Assembly (NCBI RefSeq): GCF_030362795.1
Contig: NZ_JAUCBM010000006.1
Location: 1 to 64,000 of the forward strand
From: Pseudochrobactrum kiredjianiae
Lineage (GTDB): Bacteria; Pseudomonadota; Alphaproteobacteria; Rhizobiales; Rhizobiaceae
Length of the DNA stretch: 64,000 nucleotides
Direction of reading: 5' to 3'
The translations under genes and the position numbers were made by a program. Of this stretch, positions 7,552-61,597 are shown in pieces (within the stretch, counting starts at the first letter, position 1; the number at the start of each line of letters is the position of its first letter). Below the pieces are notes generated by a model, which did not search any database, had not been told where the DNA came from, and worked only from the letters and a program-made list of their open reading frames with translations.

Positions 7552-8523
7552 TTACTCAGTTTCAGCCAAAGCTGTATCCTGATCCTGCGTTTCCGCATCT
7601 GCTTTCGGTGCGCGGGTCGTGCGGCGCGGACGCAATACACGACGGGTACGCGGTGCTGCTTCTTCATCAGTCGAAACAGTATCGACAGCTGCATCCTGCT
7701 TCACATCCGCTACCGGAGCAGCATCGCTTTCCTTCACAACCGGTGCTGCGGCACGCGGGCGGCGACGCACAACTGGCGCTTCCGCAACTTCGCTCACAGC
7801 AGCAACAACAGGCTCCGCATAGGTTGACGTTACAACCGGTTTTGCTGCCGGCTGATTGTCCGGCTGTACTGCAGGCTGTTCATAAGGAACCTGCGGTGCA
7901 GCAACAGCAACTTCCTGCCCCTGCTCAGCGCCATATTCAGGGCGCTGATGACGGCGCGGACGCTGCATACGACCCTGCCTGTCATTGTTACGGTCATTAT
8001 TACGATCGTTGCGGTCGTTACGATCATTACGATCATTACGGTCGCCACGGTCCTGACGATTATTCTGCTGACGGTTATTGCGACCGGAAGAACGGGAATT
8101 TTCTTCGCCATACATCACTTCAGCAGGTGTGCCTTCGATAACAGGCTGCGGGCCGCTGCCGTCATAGACTTCCTGATGCGACACGGACTGGCCGGAATGA
8201 CCCTGCTCCATTGTATCGTCATCATCATAGTCATCATCAAAGCCTTCATCCCGCTGTACCGGCACAGGGTTTTGAGCCTGCGCTGCCAGAATGATACGGT
8301 TATAATGCTCTGCGTGCTGCAAATAATTCTCTGCAATAACCCGGTCGCCGGTTGCCTGTGCATCGCGAGCCAGAGTTGTATATTTTTCGGCAATATGCTG
8401 CGCATTGCCCCTGATTTTTACATCAGGTCCGTTACTTTCGTAATTACGGGAAAGAGGATTAGGGCCCTTACGGTTATTATTCCCCCGTCCACGCATGCGC
8501 CTGTTCTGCTGTGCTGGCCTCAT
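7552..8523 (-). CDS. DUF4167 domain protein
   Basis: Protein of unknown function conserved across Rhizobiales; often described as RNA-binding-like because of its basic, disordered make-up. 323 residues. The N-terminal DUF4167 domain (about 1-85) has the typical GPNPLSRNYESNGPDVKIRG and AENYLQHAEHY segments. It is followed by a highly charged, disordered tail with an Arg-Asn-Asp tandem repeat (about 160-190) and Ala/Val/Arg-rich stretches. I prefer ATG 8523 to ATG 8529: it gives the MRPxQQN start of homologues and the AAGAG upstream sits at 6 nt. Function unknown. Confidence 0.88.
   Translation of the reverse strand: MRPAQQNRRMRGRGNNNRKGPNPLSRNYESNGPDVKIRGNAQHIAEKYTTLARDAQATGDRVIAENYLQHAEHYNRIILAAQAQNPVPVQRDEGFDDDYDDDDTMEQGHSGQSVSHQEVYDGSGPQPVIEGTPAEVMYGEENSRSSGRNNRQQNNRQDRGDRNDRNDRNDRNDRNNDRNNDRQGRMQRPRRHQRPEYGAEQGQEVAVAAPQVPYEQPAVQPDNQPAAKPVVTSTYAEPVVAAVSEVAEAPVVRRRPRAAAPVVKESDAAPVADVKQDAAVDTVSTDEEAAPRTRRVLRPRRTTRAPKADAETQDQDTALAETE
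7980..8044. repeat. 9-bp tandem repeat in the DUF4167 gene
   Basis: About seven imperfect copies of a CGTTACGAT/CATTACGAT unit, encoding (Arg-Asn-Asp)n. Copy number is likely to vary between strains by slippage. Confidence 0.75.
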
Positions 8524-32567: not shown

Positions 32568-32652
32568 TGGTGCGGGTGGTCGGAATCGAACCGACACTCC
32601 TTTCGGAACTGGATTTTGAATCCAGCGCGTCTACCAGTTCCACCACACCCGC
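32568..32652 (-). tRNA. tRNA-Leu (CAA anticodon)
   Basis: 85 nt on the minus strand. Acceptor GCGGGTG pairs with CACCCGC, followed by A and an encoded CCA. The anticodon loop TTCAAAA closed by CTGGA/TCCAG reads CAA, for UUG codons. A long variable arm (class II) and the GGTTCGATTCC T-arm are visible. Confidence 0.96.
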
Positions 32653-45125: not shown

Positions 45126-45150
45126 GGAACCATTAGCTTAAAGACACGTT
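45126..45150 (+). promoter_or_regulatory. EcfG promoter of the DUF883 operon
   Basis: GGAAC (45126-45130), 16-bp spacer, CGTT (45147-45150): exact match to the EcfG consensus. About 60 bp upstream of the DUF883 start. Confidence 0.82.
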
Positions 45151-45208
45151 ATATTTCTGAAACTAAACGACACCCGATAATTTGCTCATTCCACTTTCGG
45201 AGGCATCA

Positions 45209-47297: not shown

Positions 47298-47846
47298 TTA
47301 AAAAGAGCGCATTGTCACCTGTGATGACGCATCGTCCGGGCCGTAATCAGAATTGCCTTTAATATCGAGCAATTCCTGCAAACGCACACGCGCACGGCTG
47401 ACACGGCTCTTGATTGTCCCGACAGCGCATTCACAAATTTCGGCTGCCTCCTCATAGGAAAAGCCTGAAGCGCCAATCAGAATGATGGCTTCACGCTGAT
47501 CATCAGGCAATTCATTCAATGCTTTGCGAAAATCCTGTAAATCAAGCGAACCATATTGGGACGGATGAACAGCCAGACGCTCTGTATAAAACCCGTCAGA
47601 ATCCTGTATCTCACGGCCACGCTTACGCATCTGGCTGTAAAATTCATTACGCAAAATTGTAAACAGCCAGGCTTTGATATTGGTACCCATCTCAAAGCTG
47701 TCGCGTTTGCCCCAGGCTTTCATAATTGTATCCTGCACCAGATCATCAGCTTTGTCCTGTTGACCTGACAGCGACACGGCAAAGGCACGCAAACCCGGTA
47801 AGGCTGCAAGCATCAGCCGTTTAAATTCGTCTCTCTCCTCCGCCAT
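47298..47846 (-). CDS. ecfG: General stress ECF sigma factor EcfG
   Basis: Directs RNA polymerase to general stress genes (called RpoE1 in Brucella, RpoE2 in Sinorhizobium). 182 residues, sigma2 (about 10-75; DKADDLVQDTIMKAW) and sigma4 (about 105-160; LPDDQREAIILIGASGFSYE) only. Held inactive by NepR until phosphorylated PhyR binds NepR. AAGGA precedes ATG 47846. It starts 5 bp after nepR; the operon has a candidate EcfG promoter, so it is likely autoregulated. Confidence 0.96.
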   Translation of the reverse strand: MAEERDEFKRLMLAALPGLRAFAVSLSGQQDKADDLVQDTIMKAWGKRDSFEMGTNIKAWLFTILRNEFYSQMRKRGREIQDSDGFYTERLAVHPSQYGSLDLQDFRKALNELPDDQREAIILIGASGFSYEEAAEICECAVGTIKSRVSRARVRLQELLDIKGNSDYGPDDASSQVTMRSF

Positions 47847-47851
47847 TCTTC

Positions 47852-48109
47852 TTAATTCCTTGAATGAGAAGCAGATTTAAGTTCGGCTTGATCAAGTTTC
47901 TCTAACAGATCAAGAAAACGGTCAGGGATTGTCTCGTCCTGAATGCTGGAATAAAGCGCACGGAGTTTTGTTCCGATCTCCGAATTCGCTCCCAGTTCAT
48001 CCCCCTTATTTGAACTGCCCGAATGCTGGCTGTTTTGCGCGTAATCTTCGCGCGAAAATGAGGTCATAGCGTTATCTTGATCCTGAAGAGGTTTATTTTT
48101 ATTGGTCAT
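47852..48109 (-). CDS. nepR: Anti-sigma factor NepR
   Basis: Small anti-sigma factor of the general stress response. The conserved core GANSEIGTKLRALYSSIQDE ... IPDRFLDLLEKLD is near the C-terminus. The start is uncertain: in-frame ATGs at 48205, 48166, 48109 and 48067 lack a good ribosome site; I give 48109 (85 residues), and the predicted transcription start near 48210 excludes the longest frame. Partner-switch trio with ecfG (downstream) and phyR (divergent). Confidence 0.88.
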   Translation of the reverse strand: MTNKNKPLQDQDNAMTSFSREDYAQNSQHSGSSNKGDELGANSEIGTKLRALYSSIQDETIPDRFLDLLEKLDQAELKSASHSRN

Positions 48110-48249: not shown

Positions 48250-48274
48250 GGAACAATTTTTATAGTCAGCCGTT
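48250..48274 (+). promoter_or_regulatory. EcfG promoter of phyR
   Basis: GGAAC (48250-48254), 16-bp spacer, CGTT (48271-48274): exact consensus, about 50 bp before the phyR start. Confidence 0.82.
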
Positions 48275-48324
48275 AAAACCATAAACAAGCTGTCTTACGA
48301 CAGCCGATATAAATGGAGCACTCA

Positions 48325-49119
48325 ATGTCATTGTCTACGCGTATTGCACCGCATCTGCCTTATCTCCGTCGTTTCTCACGTGCCGTGACCGGCTCGCAAT
48401 CCGCAGGAGATGCATATGTTGCAGCAATCCTTGAAGCGCTCATTGATGACATTTCAGTCTTTCCCGACAGTTCATCTGATAAGATAGCGCTCTACAGGCT
48501 TTATTCCAGTATTTTCGACCGCACATCGATCGAATTACCGGATCATGATATGCAGCATCCGTGGGAAAAGCGTGCATCACAAAATCTGGCCATGCTGACA
48601 CCACGCTCGCGTCAAGCCTTCCTTCTGGTTTCTGTTGAAGGTTTCAACGATAAAGAAGCAGCCGAAATCCTGCAGGAAGATGAAGCGGGCTTTTCAGCAC
48701 TGCTTTCGGAGGCTTCAGAGCAGATTTCCCGTCACGTTGCCACCCGTATCATGATTATTGAAGATGAGCCGCTGATCGCCATGGATATTGAGCAGATGGT
48801 GGAAACGCTGGGGCATGAGGTTGTCGGTATTGCCCGCACGCATCAGGAAGCTCTGACGCTCTATAATGCAGAAAAACCGGCCATGGTTCTGGCAGACATT
48901 CAGCTTGCCGACGGTAGCTCCGGTATTGATGCGGTCAATGACATTCTGAAAACGGATGCTATTCCGGTGATCTTTATCACGGCTTTTCCGGAGCGCCTGC
49001 TCACAGGCGAGCGATCAGAGCCGACCTTCCTTGTCACCAAACCGTTTAATCCGGACATGGTCAAGGCGCTGATCAGTCAGGCGCTGTTTTTCGAGGAAAG
49101 TGCACCGGCACACGCATAA
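48325..49119 (+). CDS. phyR: General stress response regulator PhyR
   Basis: Anti-anti-sigma factor. 264 residues: an N-terminal sigma-factor-like domain (about 1-130) that mimics EcfG, and a C-terminal receiver domain with the acidic pair in IIEDEPLIAMD, the phospho-Asp in MVLADIQLADG (about 191) and Lys in VTKPF (about 239). When phosphorylated it binds NepR and frees EcfG. ATG 48325 has GGAG at 6 nt; an ATG at 48313 would absorb this site. Divergent from nepR-ecfG. Confidence 0.97.
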   Translation: MSLSTRIAPHLPYLRRFSRAVTGSQSAGDAYVAAILEALIDDISVFPDSSSDKIALYRLYSSIFDRTSIELPDHDMQHPWEKRASQNLAMLTPRSRQAFLLVSVEGFNDKEAAEILQEDEAGFSALLSEASEQISRHVATRIMIIEDEPLIAMDIEQMVETLGHEVVGIARTHQEALTLYNAEKPAMVLADIQLADGSSGIDAVNDILKTDAIPVIFITAFPERLLTGERSEPTFLVTKPFNPDMVKALISQALFFEESAPAHA

Positions 49120-49143: not shown

Positions 49144-49168
49144 GGAACTAAACCCGCCACGACACGTT
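49144..49168 (+). promoter_or_regulatory. EcfG promoter of the DUF1328 gene
   Basis: GGAAC (49144-49148), 16-bp spacer, CGTT (49165-49168): exact consensus, 75 bp before the DUF1328 start. Confidence 0.82.
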
Positions 49169-49474: not shown

Positions 49475-50590
49475 ATGCCGCAACAATCTGCAATTCAAGC
49501 CAGATATAGTGTACAGAAAGTCTATCTTATGGCTCCCACATCTTCCGTGTCAGGATATAGCAGTACCGGCCAGATCCGCTTACGCTCCCTGTTGCGAGCC
49601 ATCAGAAACAGCAATGTTTCTGTTTTCTACCAAACCCCAAATCTGAATTACAGCTGGGCAGAAAACCTGCCTGATTTTTGGCATTTGCCATGGCGCCCCG
49701 ACATCAGTGAAGCTGAGCTAATGCCGAAAGACATTGCCGCCCAACTGATGGCCGCCAAAAACCAGTTACTTGAGACCGGCGATGCCCAGCGGTTGGAAAT
49801 TTCCTTTCCGGACAAGAAAAACCCGCGCTGGTACGAATTCTTTATCGATAGCGACAGGGATGAAGACGGAAAAATCATCGGCGTGGTCACAACAGCTGTC
49901 GAGATTAGCGAGCTGAAACACCGTGAGCAGGTTTTAAAAATTCTGCTACGGGAAGTCAGCCACCGCTCCAAAAACCTTCTCGCAATCATTCAAAGCATTG
50001 CCATGCAGACAGCCCGCTTTTCCGGCTCTGTTGACCAGTTTCTGCAAAAATTCCGCGGCCGCCTCCATTCGCTTTCGCATTCTCAGGATCTGGTCACCGA
50101 TTCAAACTGGCATGGTGCAGATTTTCGCGAATTGTTGTTCTCTCAGCTGGAAAAATATATCCATCCTAAAGACCCGCGCCTCACCATCACCGGTCAGGAT
50201 GCCTATCTGTTTCCGGGCGCGGCGCTGCATGTCGGGCTTGCTTTCCATGAACTCATCGTCAACTCCGCATCCTATGGTGCACTCGCCTGCGAGCATGGCA
50301 GTCTTACCATCTCCGCAGAGCTGGAACCGGATGGTGAAGGTGAGATGGATCTGATTATTCACTGGAAAGAGCAAACCTGCCCGCCGGACAGCCCAGACAG
50401 AACAGGCAGAACAGACCATCCGACTGATGTTCCGGCACTACAAAAACCTCAGCCTGATGCTTCGCGCTTCGGCAGCGCGGTTTTGCTACGCATTGTCCCG
50501 CAGGCGGTTAGCGGCACGGCCCATTATTCAATTAAGCCAGACAGCGTGGAATATTATCTGCGTATACCGCACCGGAACTTCGATTTTTAA
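49475..50590 (+). CDS. HWE-family sensor histidine kinase
   Basis: Likely one of the kinases feeding PhyR. 371 residues, no membrane segment: a PAS-like domain (about 35-145), the HWE dimerisation domain with phospho-His in REVSHRSKNLLAIIQSIA (His163), an ATP-binding N-box HELIVNSASYGAL, the diagnostic W-x-E (HWKEQ), and a degenerate G-box FGSAVLLRIVPQAVSG. It carries a 25-residue polar insert (about 305-332). Starts at ATG 49475 or ATG 49529; neither has a strong ribosome site. Position beside phyR is typical of PhyT/PhyK-type kinases. Confidence 0.9.
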   Translation: MPQQSAIQARYSVQKVYLMAPTSSVSGYSSTGQIRLRSLLRAIRNSNVSVFYQTPNLNYSWAENLPDFWHLPWRPDISEAELMPKDIAAQLMAAKNQLLETGDAQRLEISFPDKKNPRWYEFFIDSDRDEDGKIIGVVTTAVEISELKHREQVLKILLREVSHRSKNLLAIIQSIAMQTARFSGSVDQFLQKFRGRLHSLSHSQDLVTDSNWHGADFRELLFSQLEKYIHPKDPRLTITGQDAYLFPGAALHVGLAFHELIVNSASYGALACEHGSLTISAELEPDGEGEMDLIIHWKEQTCPPDSPDRTGRTDHPTDVPALQKPQPDASRFGSAVLLRIVPQAVSGTAHYSIKPDSVEYYLRIPHRNFDF

Positions 50591-50645
50591 AATATTTTTA
50601 CTGGCGCTTGCTGTAGCGCATTCAATAAACTCAATCACTTCAGAC

Positions 50646-50767
50646 AAAAAATAGCGCGCTCCGAAAACTGAATTCCAGGAGCGCGCAGACCATGGGATTA
50701 GGGGGCATAACCCACAGTATGTGAAAGGCTGAACTGTGAGGGGGCAGATTGTTAGCCTTTCACAATC
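50646..50767 (-). ncRNA. Candidate general-stress small RNA (GsrN-like)
   Basis: Minus-strand ~122-nt unit. A near-consensus EcfG promoter is followed about 6 nt later by hairpin 1 (GTGAAAGGCT/AGCCTTTCAC, plus 50721-50763) whose large loop contains GCCCCCT, then a linker with a second GCCCCCT, then hairpin 2 (GCGCGCTCC/GGAGCGCGC, plus 50654-50686) and a TATTTTTT run: an intrinsic terminator. No ORF. GsrN of Caulobacter is an EcfG-dependent sRNA that works through a C-rich loop. Alternative: the 3' UTR and terminator of the upstream fur-family gene. Confidence 0.62.
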
Positions 50768-50772
50768 ACTAC

Positions 50773-50797
50773 AACGCCTGTCTTTTGAAATGGTTTC
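50773..50797 (-). promoter_or_regulatory. Near-consensus EcfG promoter of the candidate sRNA
   Basis: Minus strand GAAAC (plus 50793-50797), 16-bp spacer, CGTT (plus 50773-50776). One mismatch in the -35 (GGAAC expected), exact spacing and -10. Confidence 0.6.
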
Positions 50798-50844: not shown

Positions 50845-51255
50845 TTATTTTTTAATCTTACGGCCATAAAGCTCAAAGCGGTGATGAATGATTTCATACC
50901 CCAGCGAGCGGGCGATTTCTTCTTGTAATTTCTCAATCATTTCAGAGTGAAACTCGATAACATCGCCGGTTTCCATATCAATCAGATGATCATGATGCTG
51001 ATTGCCGGCCTGTTCGAAACGGGACGGGCCACCGTCAAAAGCGTGACGGTGAATAGCGCCCTGCTCTTCCAGCAATTTCATTGTCCGGTAGACGGTCGAT
51101 AATGAAATACTGCTATCAACCTCAACTGCATGACGGAAAATTTCCAGAGCATCCGGATGCCCTTCCGTCTGAGACAGGATATCAAGAATGACGCGTCTGG
51201 GACGTGTAATCCGCACGCCCGCATCACGAAGCTGTTTTTCATAATCATTTTTCAT
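50845..51255 (-). CDS. Fur family metal regulator (Fur/Mur type)
   Basis: 136 residues: N-terminal winged helix ([20 protein letters not shown] ... [18 protein letters not shown]) and C-terminal dimerisation/metal domain with [19 protein letters not shown] and [11 protein letters not shown]. These C-terminal segments match the rhizobial Fur/Mur group, which responds to manganese, rather than Irr or Zur. ATG 51255 (GGGG upstream) is preferred; ATG 51270 and TTG 51297 are alternatives. A candidate sRNA is encoded just downstream on the same strand. Confidence 0.9.
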
Positions 51256-61533: not shown

Positions 61534-61536
61534 TTT

Positions 61537-61597
61537 GTATCTACCCTTTCAGATAGCACGCTTCCCGTTGGGGAGAAGTGGCCCACTGACGAAGCTA
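61537..61597 (-). ncRNA. serC RNA motif in the serC leader
   Basis: The 60 nt before serC fold into two hairpins on the minus strand: CCACTTCTCCC/GGGAAG-type stem (plus 61559-61581) and CTATCT-GAAA-GGGTAG (plus 61541-61556) ending 7 nt before the start codon. Two small hairpins abutting the serC start in an alphaproteobacterium fit the described serC RNA motif. The sequestering position suggests control of translation start. Match is from memory. Confidence 0.62.

Follow-up and report, generated by a model that had tools for sequence, protein, structure and literature searches.

A candidate GsrN-like small RNA with two C-rich loops between the HWE kinase and Fur-family genes of a Pseudochrobactrum stress locus

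Introduction

In the general stress response (GSR) pathway, stress is established to act through PhyR, which frees the sigma factor EcfG from its anti-sigma factor NepR. The small RNA (sRNA) arm of this response in alphaproteobacteria is, within the literature cited here, described in detail only for GsrN of Caulobacter. The GSR locus of Pseudochrobactrum kiredjianiae lies in a 64,000-nucleotide stretch of contig NZ_JAUCBM010000006.1, analysed here at its full length and called the window. It raises the question of whether such an RNA is encoded inside the locus itself. An original prediction made from the letters of this DNA placed a GsrN-like stress sRNA on the minus strand, between the genes for an HWE histidine kinase and a Fur-family regulator.

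Results

Pfam matches and the layout of open reading frames bear out this setting (Table 1). The gene that we take to encode PhyR, from its neighbours, has a product 91-99% identical to those of P. asaccharolyticum, P. saccharolyticum, Pseudochrobactrum sp. and two records under other titles among the named matches listed. A Pseudochrobactrum-like GSR locus with a PhyR 99% identical to that of the window was also found under the title Bacillus subtilis SK6B4 (L080); the title is probably wrong. The exact motif GGAAC-N16-CGTT occurs on the plus strand of the window at three sites (49144-49168, 48250-48274 and 45126-45150), against 0.79 expected, and at least three are reached by 9 of 100 shuffles. 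The sites precede the kinase gene, the PhyR gene and an open reading frame at 45182, whose product we take to resemble a small DUF883-type protein. The Rfam matches in the window are a serC leader (61536-61588) and a tRNA (32571-32652), both on the minus strand.

Table 1. Coordinates of the candidate sRNA, its parts and the surrounding GSR genes in the window
Feature	Position	Strand	Remarks
EcfG sigma factor	47298..47846	-	PF04542, PF08281, PF22029; subtype inferred from neighbours
NepR anti-sigma factor	47852..48067	-	PF18557, E 5.1e-17; ORF from internal ATG
PhyR	48313..49119	+	GGAAC-N16-CGTT upstream at 48250
HWE histidine kinase	49475..50590	+	PF07536, E 1.4e-25; convergent with sRNA; GGAAC-N16-CGTT upstream at 49144
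Predicted sRNA, ~122 nt	50646..50767	-	start inferred from promoter spacing, end from U-run
Intrinsic terminator	50646..50686	-	arms 50686-50678 / 50662-50654, 9-bp GC stem plus inner extension; UAUUUUUU at 50653-50646
Hairpin 2	50689..50718	-	arms 50718-50711 / 50696-50689; loop GCCCCCU 50706-50700
Hairpin 1	50720..50764	-	arms 50764-50754 / 50730-50720, 11 bp; loop GCCCCCU 50745-50739
EcfG-type promoter	50773..50797	-	GAAAC 50797-50793, N16, CGTT 50776-50773; one base off usual GGAAC
Fur-family regulator	50845..51255	-	PF01475, E 4.6e-39; ORF from internal ATG; upstream of sRNA, same strand

The predicted GAAAC-N16-CGTT is present on the minus strand. The motif on its own is weak: GAAAC-N15/16-CGTT has three matches in the window, where 0.96 would be expected, and at least as many turn up in 7 of 100 shuffles. 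The first hairpin carries GCCCCCT in its loop, as predicted, but starts 8 nt rather than about 6 nt from CGTT and has an 11-bp instead of a 10-bp stem. The second GCCCCCT, originally assigned to a linker, sits instead in a hairpin loop of its own; this second hairpin is kept in the genus consensus structure. The 9-bp GC-rich hairpin followed by UAUUUUUU was recovered as described (50686-50646). The predicted RNA folds at -50.3 kcal/mol, compared with -35.1 +/- 3.9 kcal/mol for shuffled sequences (z -3.9; none of 200 shuffles as good).

A simple terminator scan of the window reported no terminator at the sRNA end, which we attribute to the 8-nt loop limit of the scan. On the plus strand after the kinase gene (50591-50767), no U-run terminator is visible by eye; the simple scan also gave none there, but it missed the sRNA's own as well. 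Since the sRNA is convergent with the kinase gene and no kinase terminator was seen, read-through RNA from the kinase gene would bear the full complement of the sRNA.

The genus comparison bears on the claim that the interval holds no open reading frame. Frames of at least about 10 codons occur in four of the seven genus copies, one frame being common to only three of these. As the frames are not kept in all seven copies and the genus alignment has single-base gaps within the sRNA, there is no conserved reading frame in it across the seven. A 91-aa frame that extends across the promoter and the sRNA into the antisense of the kinase end was taken as mechanical. Rfam, at gathering score, gives no family at the sRNA site, and in the GSR loci of eight relatives it gives tRNAs only, with weaker matches far below the cut-offs that we took as noise. 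No second copy of the sRNA was found in its own genome, where the ten other matches are pieces of 14-37 nt (best E 0.38).

A DNA search of 61 genomes returned seven matches, every one from Pseudochrobactrum and none from other genera. The sRNA is present in all seven Pseudochrobactrum genomes searched, at 75-100% identity. GAAAC...CGTT occurs in each copy, always with GAAAC as the -35 element. The promoter, loops and terminator are kept, and the alignment becomes poor beyond the terminator. Loss of the C-rich motifs and hairpins in close relatives, which would argue against the RNA, was looked for in these seven genomes, and both are kept throughout. The RNAalifold consensus for the genus has three stem-loops with a double change in just one of 33 pairs, so the genus by itself does not prove the structure.

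A covariance search, proposed with the original prediction, recovered members of the genus but no true relatives in other genera. Model R1 matched 5 of 247 family genomes; four belong to Pseudochrobactrum, and the fifth match is a look-alike (L019). The filters of this search were strict, with 14 candidates scored per genome, and weak relatives may be lost. Because the sequence and covariance searches both stop at the genus, we used the position of the locus instead.

PhyR relatives are found in 98 of 121 family genomes. From these we prepared 80 places and fetched 60, which together with the best 80 of 549 named loci gave 140 GSR loci. Once the loci were oriented by PhyR, 117 had a kinase with 900 nt after its match, corresponding to 114 distinct regions. 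The two sets of loci partly overlap and hold many Rhizobium rows, so the counts are not independent events; the EcfG survey pattern was picked after the window had been viewed. An EcfG motif with at least two C4 runs within 110 nt is present on the sRNA strand in 67 of the 114 post-kinase regions, and in 62 of 109 outside the genus (both counts including the best 80 of 549 named loci). The same pattern occurs in 1 of 114 regions on the opposite strand and in 5 of 2280 base-shuffled controls (a simple, not a dinucleotide, shuffle). Some of the 67 regions look doubtful, for example L042. When two C-loop hairpins are demanded, 42 of 114 regions qualify on the sRNA strand against 0 of 114 on the other (again including the best 80 of 549 named loci): 34 of the 67 pattern-positive regions and eight more. 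The strict pattern is absent from 47 regions, and 39 of these fail the hairpin rule too; for these 39, loss, a move and an over-strict pattern are indistinguishable.

Among these loci, which include the best 80 of 549 named, there are 24 distinct kinase-Fur intervals: five from Pseudochrobactrum and 19 others, mostly from Brucella/Ochrobactrum and Falsochrobactrum. In 15 of the 19 a GGAAC-type motif in the same place and on the same strand is followed by C-rich loops. In L103 the C-loop hairpins follow a site that is off the EcfG pattern, and three of the 19 intervals are just 43-71 nt long. The most telling case beyond the genus is L021, whose loops, GCCCCCCUCAC and GCCCCCCUAACC, are near those of the window and sit on unrelated stems.

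The position survey bears on whether the RNA has a gene of its own. The Fur-family gene lies on the same strand, with 47 nt from its stop codon to the promoter motif and no GC-rich terminator between them by eye, and the promoter motif is off-consensus. The candidate might on these grounds be the 3' untranslated part of the Fur-family mRNA, either processed or a mere terminator region. Three observations make this unlikely. The start of ReC64, an sRNA of Rhizobium etli, was mapped at its own EcfG promoter (PMC3892343, excerpted text). The promoter motif of the candidate recurs in 7 of 7 genus copies. Finally, in loci of Rhizobium and others the EcfG motif and C-runs are in place although the fetched sequence shows no Fur-family match.

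CcsR or 'cuckoo' RNAs are stress RNAs with two C-rich loops of the CUYUCCUCCC type, which follow DUF1127 genes and are linked to other sigma factors. Membership of this group would account for the cross-match of model R1 to L019 (E 4.4e-5), an RNA of another genus whose two hairpins carry UCCUCCUCCUCC-type loops and which ends in UAUUUUUU. The candidate in the window, however, has GCCCCCU loops and an EcfG-like promoter, and its neighbours are the HWE kinase and Fur-family genes; we found neither CUYUCCUCCC-type loops nor a DUF1127-type neighbour, and consider its membership very improbable. In the L019 RNA itself (1501-1636), CUCCUCCUCC loops recur in both hairpins and a terminator is present; it is probably a cuckoo/CcsR-type sRNA. 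It lies directly after a short open reading frame that is presumably DUF1127-like.

Evidence for the structure comes from the sister genera. Sixteen kinase-Fur copies from outside the genus have C-loops, and we aligned 15 of them; L021 was excluded because its stems are unrelated, and the Rhizobium and Pseudochrobactrum copies are not in this alignment. In it, 94.6% of cells are paired, compared with 33-56% in slid controls, and double changes occur in 11 of 20 pairs. Across 500 shuffles, the percentage paired, the number of double changes and the covariation score are never equalled; for a fifth measure, the count of further pair types, the result is unremarkable (118 of 500). The structure was drawn by hand on the same, mutually related sequences, and both circumstances favour it. 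RNAalifold returns the same two hairpins from the alignment, with 18 pairs. The compensatory changes expected of conserved hairpins are thus present in 11 of 20 pairs in the sister genera and in 1 of 33 within Pseudochrobactrum. In the sister genera, the stems are preserved by double changes while the C-rich loops stay. A structured RNA without targets, whose hairpins are just a terminator or insulator, would suit a place between convergent units with a terminator at the end, but is scarcely credible: C-rich loops kept across genera on changing stems argue against a terminator-only role, which needs no such loops, and the R. etli relative ReC64 is transcribed and stress-linked (PMC3892343 and PMC4167512, in excerpt).

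At the level of the class, a PhyR relative at 1e-40 was found in 21 of 142 genomes, the window's own included, and 18 loci were fetched, the two weakest being omitted. In 4 of the 18, a GGAAC motif precedes a hairpin whose loop holds a C-run, and we judge two of these (L262 and L265) convincing. At position 8352 (+) of L265, an EcfG motif and a hairpin with a C-run loop precede a terminator-like hairpin with a long C-run loop, a layout that is perhaps closer to GsrN.

The original prediction named katG as a target. This fails: a katG-type peroxidase (PF00141) is found in none of the seven genus genomes (one of them 61% complete), and the same search finds it in the Caulobacter vibrioides control. 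With katG missing in the genus, targets must differ between lineages. Within the 64-kb window AGGGGGC has two sites only, both the antisense of the sRNA itself. Across the seven genus genomes, AGGGGGC stands 3-10 nt before ATG at 158 sites, compared with 69 in the control, and AGGGGG with another base stands before start codons at 301 against 160. The excess of AGGGGGC is hardly above that of AGGGGG with another base and is not specific.

We fetched 72 AGGGGGC sites from four species: 18 of 18 in G000, 17 of 17 in G004, 20 of 27 in G003 and 17 of 25 in G006. The site is shared by all four species at two genes with long frames, one encoding a Bestrophin-like protein (PF14023) and one without a Pfam family. 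The Bestrophin-like leader has GAGGGGGCAGAAUG over the start in 4 of 4 species compared. Its predicted duplex with loop 1 ranges from -22.7 to -26.6 kcal/mol, and 0-1 of 200 base-shuffled leaders are as good; an 11-nt run, GAGGGGGCAGA, pairs fully in G000 only, and the other three species pair 8 nt plus 3. For the gene without a Pfam family the duplex is -19.2 to -22.7 kcal/mol, with 1-8 of 200 shuffled leaders as good. A third candidate gene (MLYHRF...) has an AGGGGGC site in three of four species. A fourth shared string, with frames of 69-90 aa in all four species, looks like the interior of another gene and was set aside. For the first three target groups, the upstream 150 nt hold no EcfG motif. 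As the sites lie at the position expected of a ribosome-binding site and the excess is not specific, these genes stay candidates.

Discussion

Taken together, the observations make it probable that the interval encodes a trans-acting GSR sRNA, the Pseudochrobactrum copy of the ReC64 or 'GsrN-like' RNA of Rhizobiales, which would pair through its two C-loops with G-rich leaders. Under stress, PhyR would release EcfG from NepR, and EcfG would start the sRNA near 50767, with an end expected at the U-run about 122 nt on. The two GCCCCCU loops may then pair with AGGGGGC-like G-rich sequence in mRNA leaders; such pairing, probably assisted by Hfq, would alter translation or stability. There is an hfq gene. 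Activity probably resides in the 5' two-hairpin part, which in Rhizobium is probably a stable processed form as well.

Dependence on EcfG is suggested by a promoter one base off consensus. Two points count against it: the -35 element is GAAAC in all seven genus copies, compared with GGAAC at the three other EcfG-type sites in the window, and promoters for SigA and RpoH are predicted for ReC64 in R. etli (PMC4167512, excerpt).

A broader reading is tentative, and we regard it as rather doubtful. A two-C-loop RNA may extend across the Rhizobiales with its stems wholly replaced and both loops retained, the 5' two-hairpin piece being active and stable and the larger ReC64 band being the full-length RNA with its terminator. 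Its targets would be G-rich leaders such as the Bestrophin-like GAGGGGGCAGAAUG, not katG. Given the convergence with the GSR kinase gene, read-through kinase mRNA would be a perfect complement of the sRNA and could act as a brake. This reading could explain the odd band reported on ReC64 blots. A covariation-backed family whose place is fixed and whose C-loops persist makes predictions based on the locus open to modelling, searching and testing in harmless rhizobia.

Published systems are compared here from excerpts of the cited papers. ReC64 of R. etli lies downstream of the kinase gene tcrY, with a 5' RACE start at an EcfG promoter; its expression and reporter activity are abolished in an ecfG1 mutant, its reported length is 88 nt, and R. 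leguminosarum 3841 also carries it (Jans et al. 2013, PMC3892343). An additional larger transcript is of unclear origin in the source (Vercruysse et al. 2010, PMC2881028), and in a later R. etli study ReC64 rises under salt (PMC4167512). In the locus of R. leguminosarum 3841 (L141) we found two C-run hairpins at the expected place and on the expected strand. The window RNA resembles ReC64 in lying downstream of a GSR kinase gene, and has an off-consensus EcfG-like motif where ReC64 has its EcfG promoter; for ReC64, stationary-phase and stress-linked expression has been published. It differs in its stem sequences, the Rhizobium fold having an inner hairpin in hairpin 1. The Fur-family neighbour is absent from the fetched Rhizobium stretch, and the 88 nt reported for ReC64 contrast with about 122 nt predicted here. 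In the R. leguminosarum copy, the stretch that opens shortly after CGTT and runs through hairpin 2 measures 88 nt, and the T-run begins 124 nt after CGTT; we chose the ends of the 88 nt ourselves, which makes this a fit, not a test. GsrN has a full-length form of about 100 nt and a form of 51-54 nt (Tien et al. 2018, PMC5869019). The simplest reading of the ReC64 bands would be a full-length RNA and a processed 5' form, as with GsrN.

With GsrN of Caulobacter the candidate shares a non-coding nature, a 5' C-rich loop and an intrinsic terminator; GsrN has an EcfG/SigT promoter, in the place of the EcfG-like motif here, and recognises G-tracts in leaders (PMC5869019). In the excerpts one 5' C-rich loop is described for GsrN, whereas the window RNA has two. 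In C. crescentus the gsrN gene is found at a distance from the GSR locus, unlike the window RNA, and katG, the tested target of GsrN, was not found in Pseudochrobactrum. BLASTn matches to GsrN ended at Caulobacteraceae in the excerpted text (PMC5869019), and homology to Caulobacter GsrN itself is not supported. We found no work on this RNA in Pseudochrobactrum among the matches listed from the open-licence literature. The kind itself is already described: a family of GSR-locus RNAs was predicted in print in 2018, and the idea is not new.

That paper lists predicted GsrN homologs in R. etli, S. meliloti, B. abortus and others, chosen by locus, EcfG site and transcription (PMC5869019). The predicted homologs of Rhizobiaceae and Brucella abortus resemble the candidate in GSR locus and C-rich loop, and carry an EcfG site (figure 9 legend); the species named in the excerpt do not include Pseudochrobactrum, and the -35 element here is GAAAC. 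RpoE2-dependent sRNAs are reported in S. meliloti (PMC3616915, PMC6180224). In B. abortus, the sRNA Bsr6 has an RpoE1 box and depends on RpoE1, which is the GSR sigma factor in Brucella (PMC12772402, 2025). Bsr6 could conceivably be the kinase-Fur RNA. The window RNA lies just downstream of the GSR kinase gene and convergent with it, as in the ReC64 or Rhizobiales GsrN-like kind, and near its 5' end are two of the exposed C-rich loops of that kind. The EcfG-type promoter and C-loops, in the place and on the strand of the predicted Rhizobiaceae GsrN homologs and of the EcfG1-dependent ReC64, thus uphold the original prediction of a non-coding RNA candidate of the GsrN-like kind.
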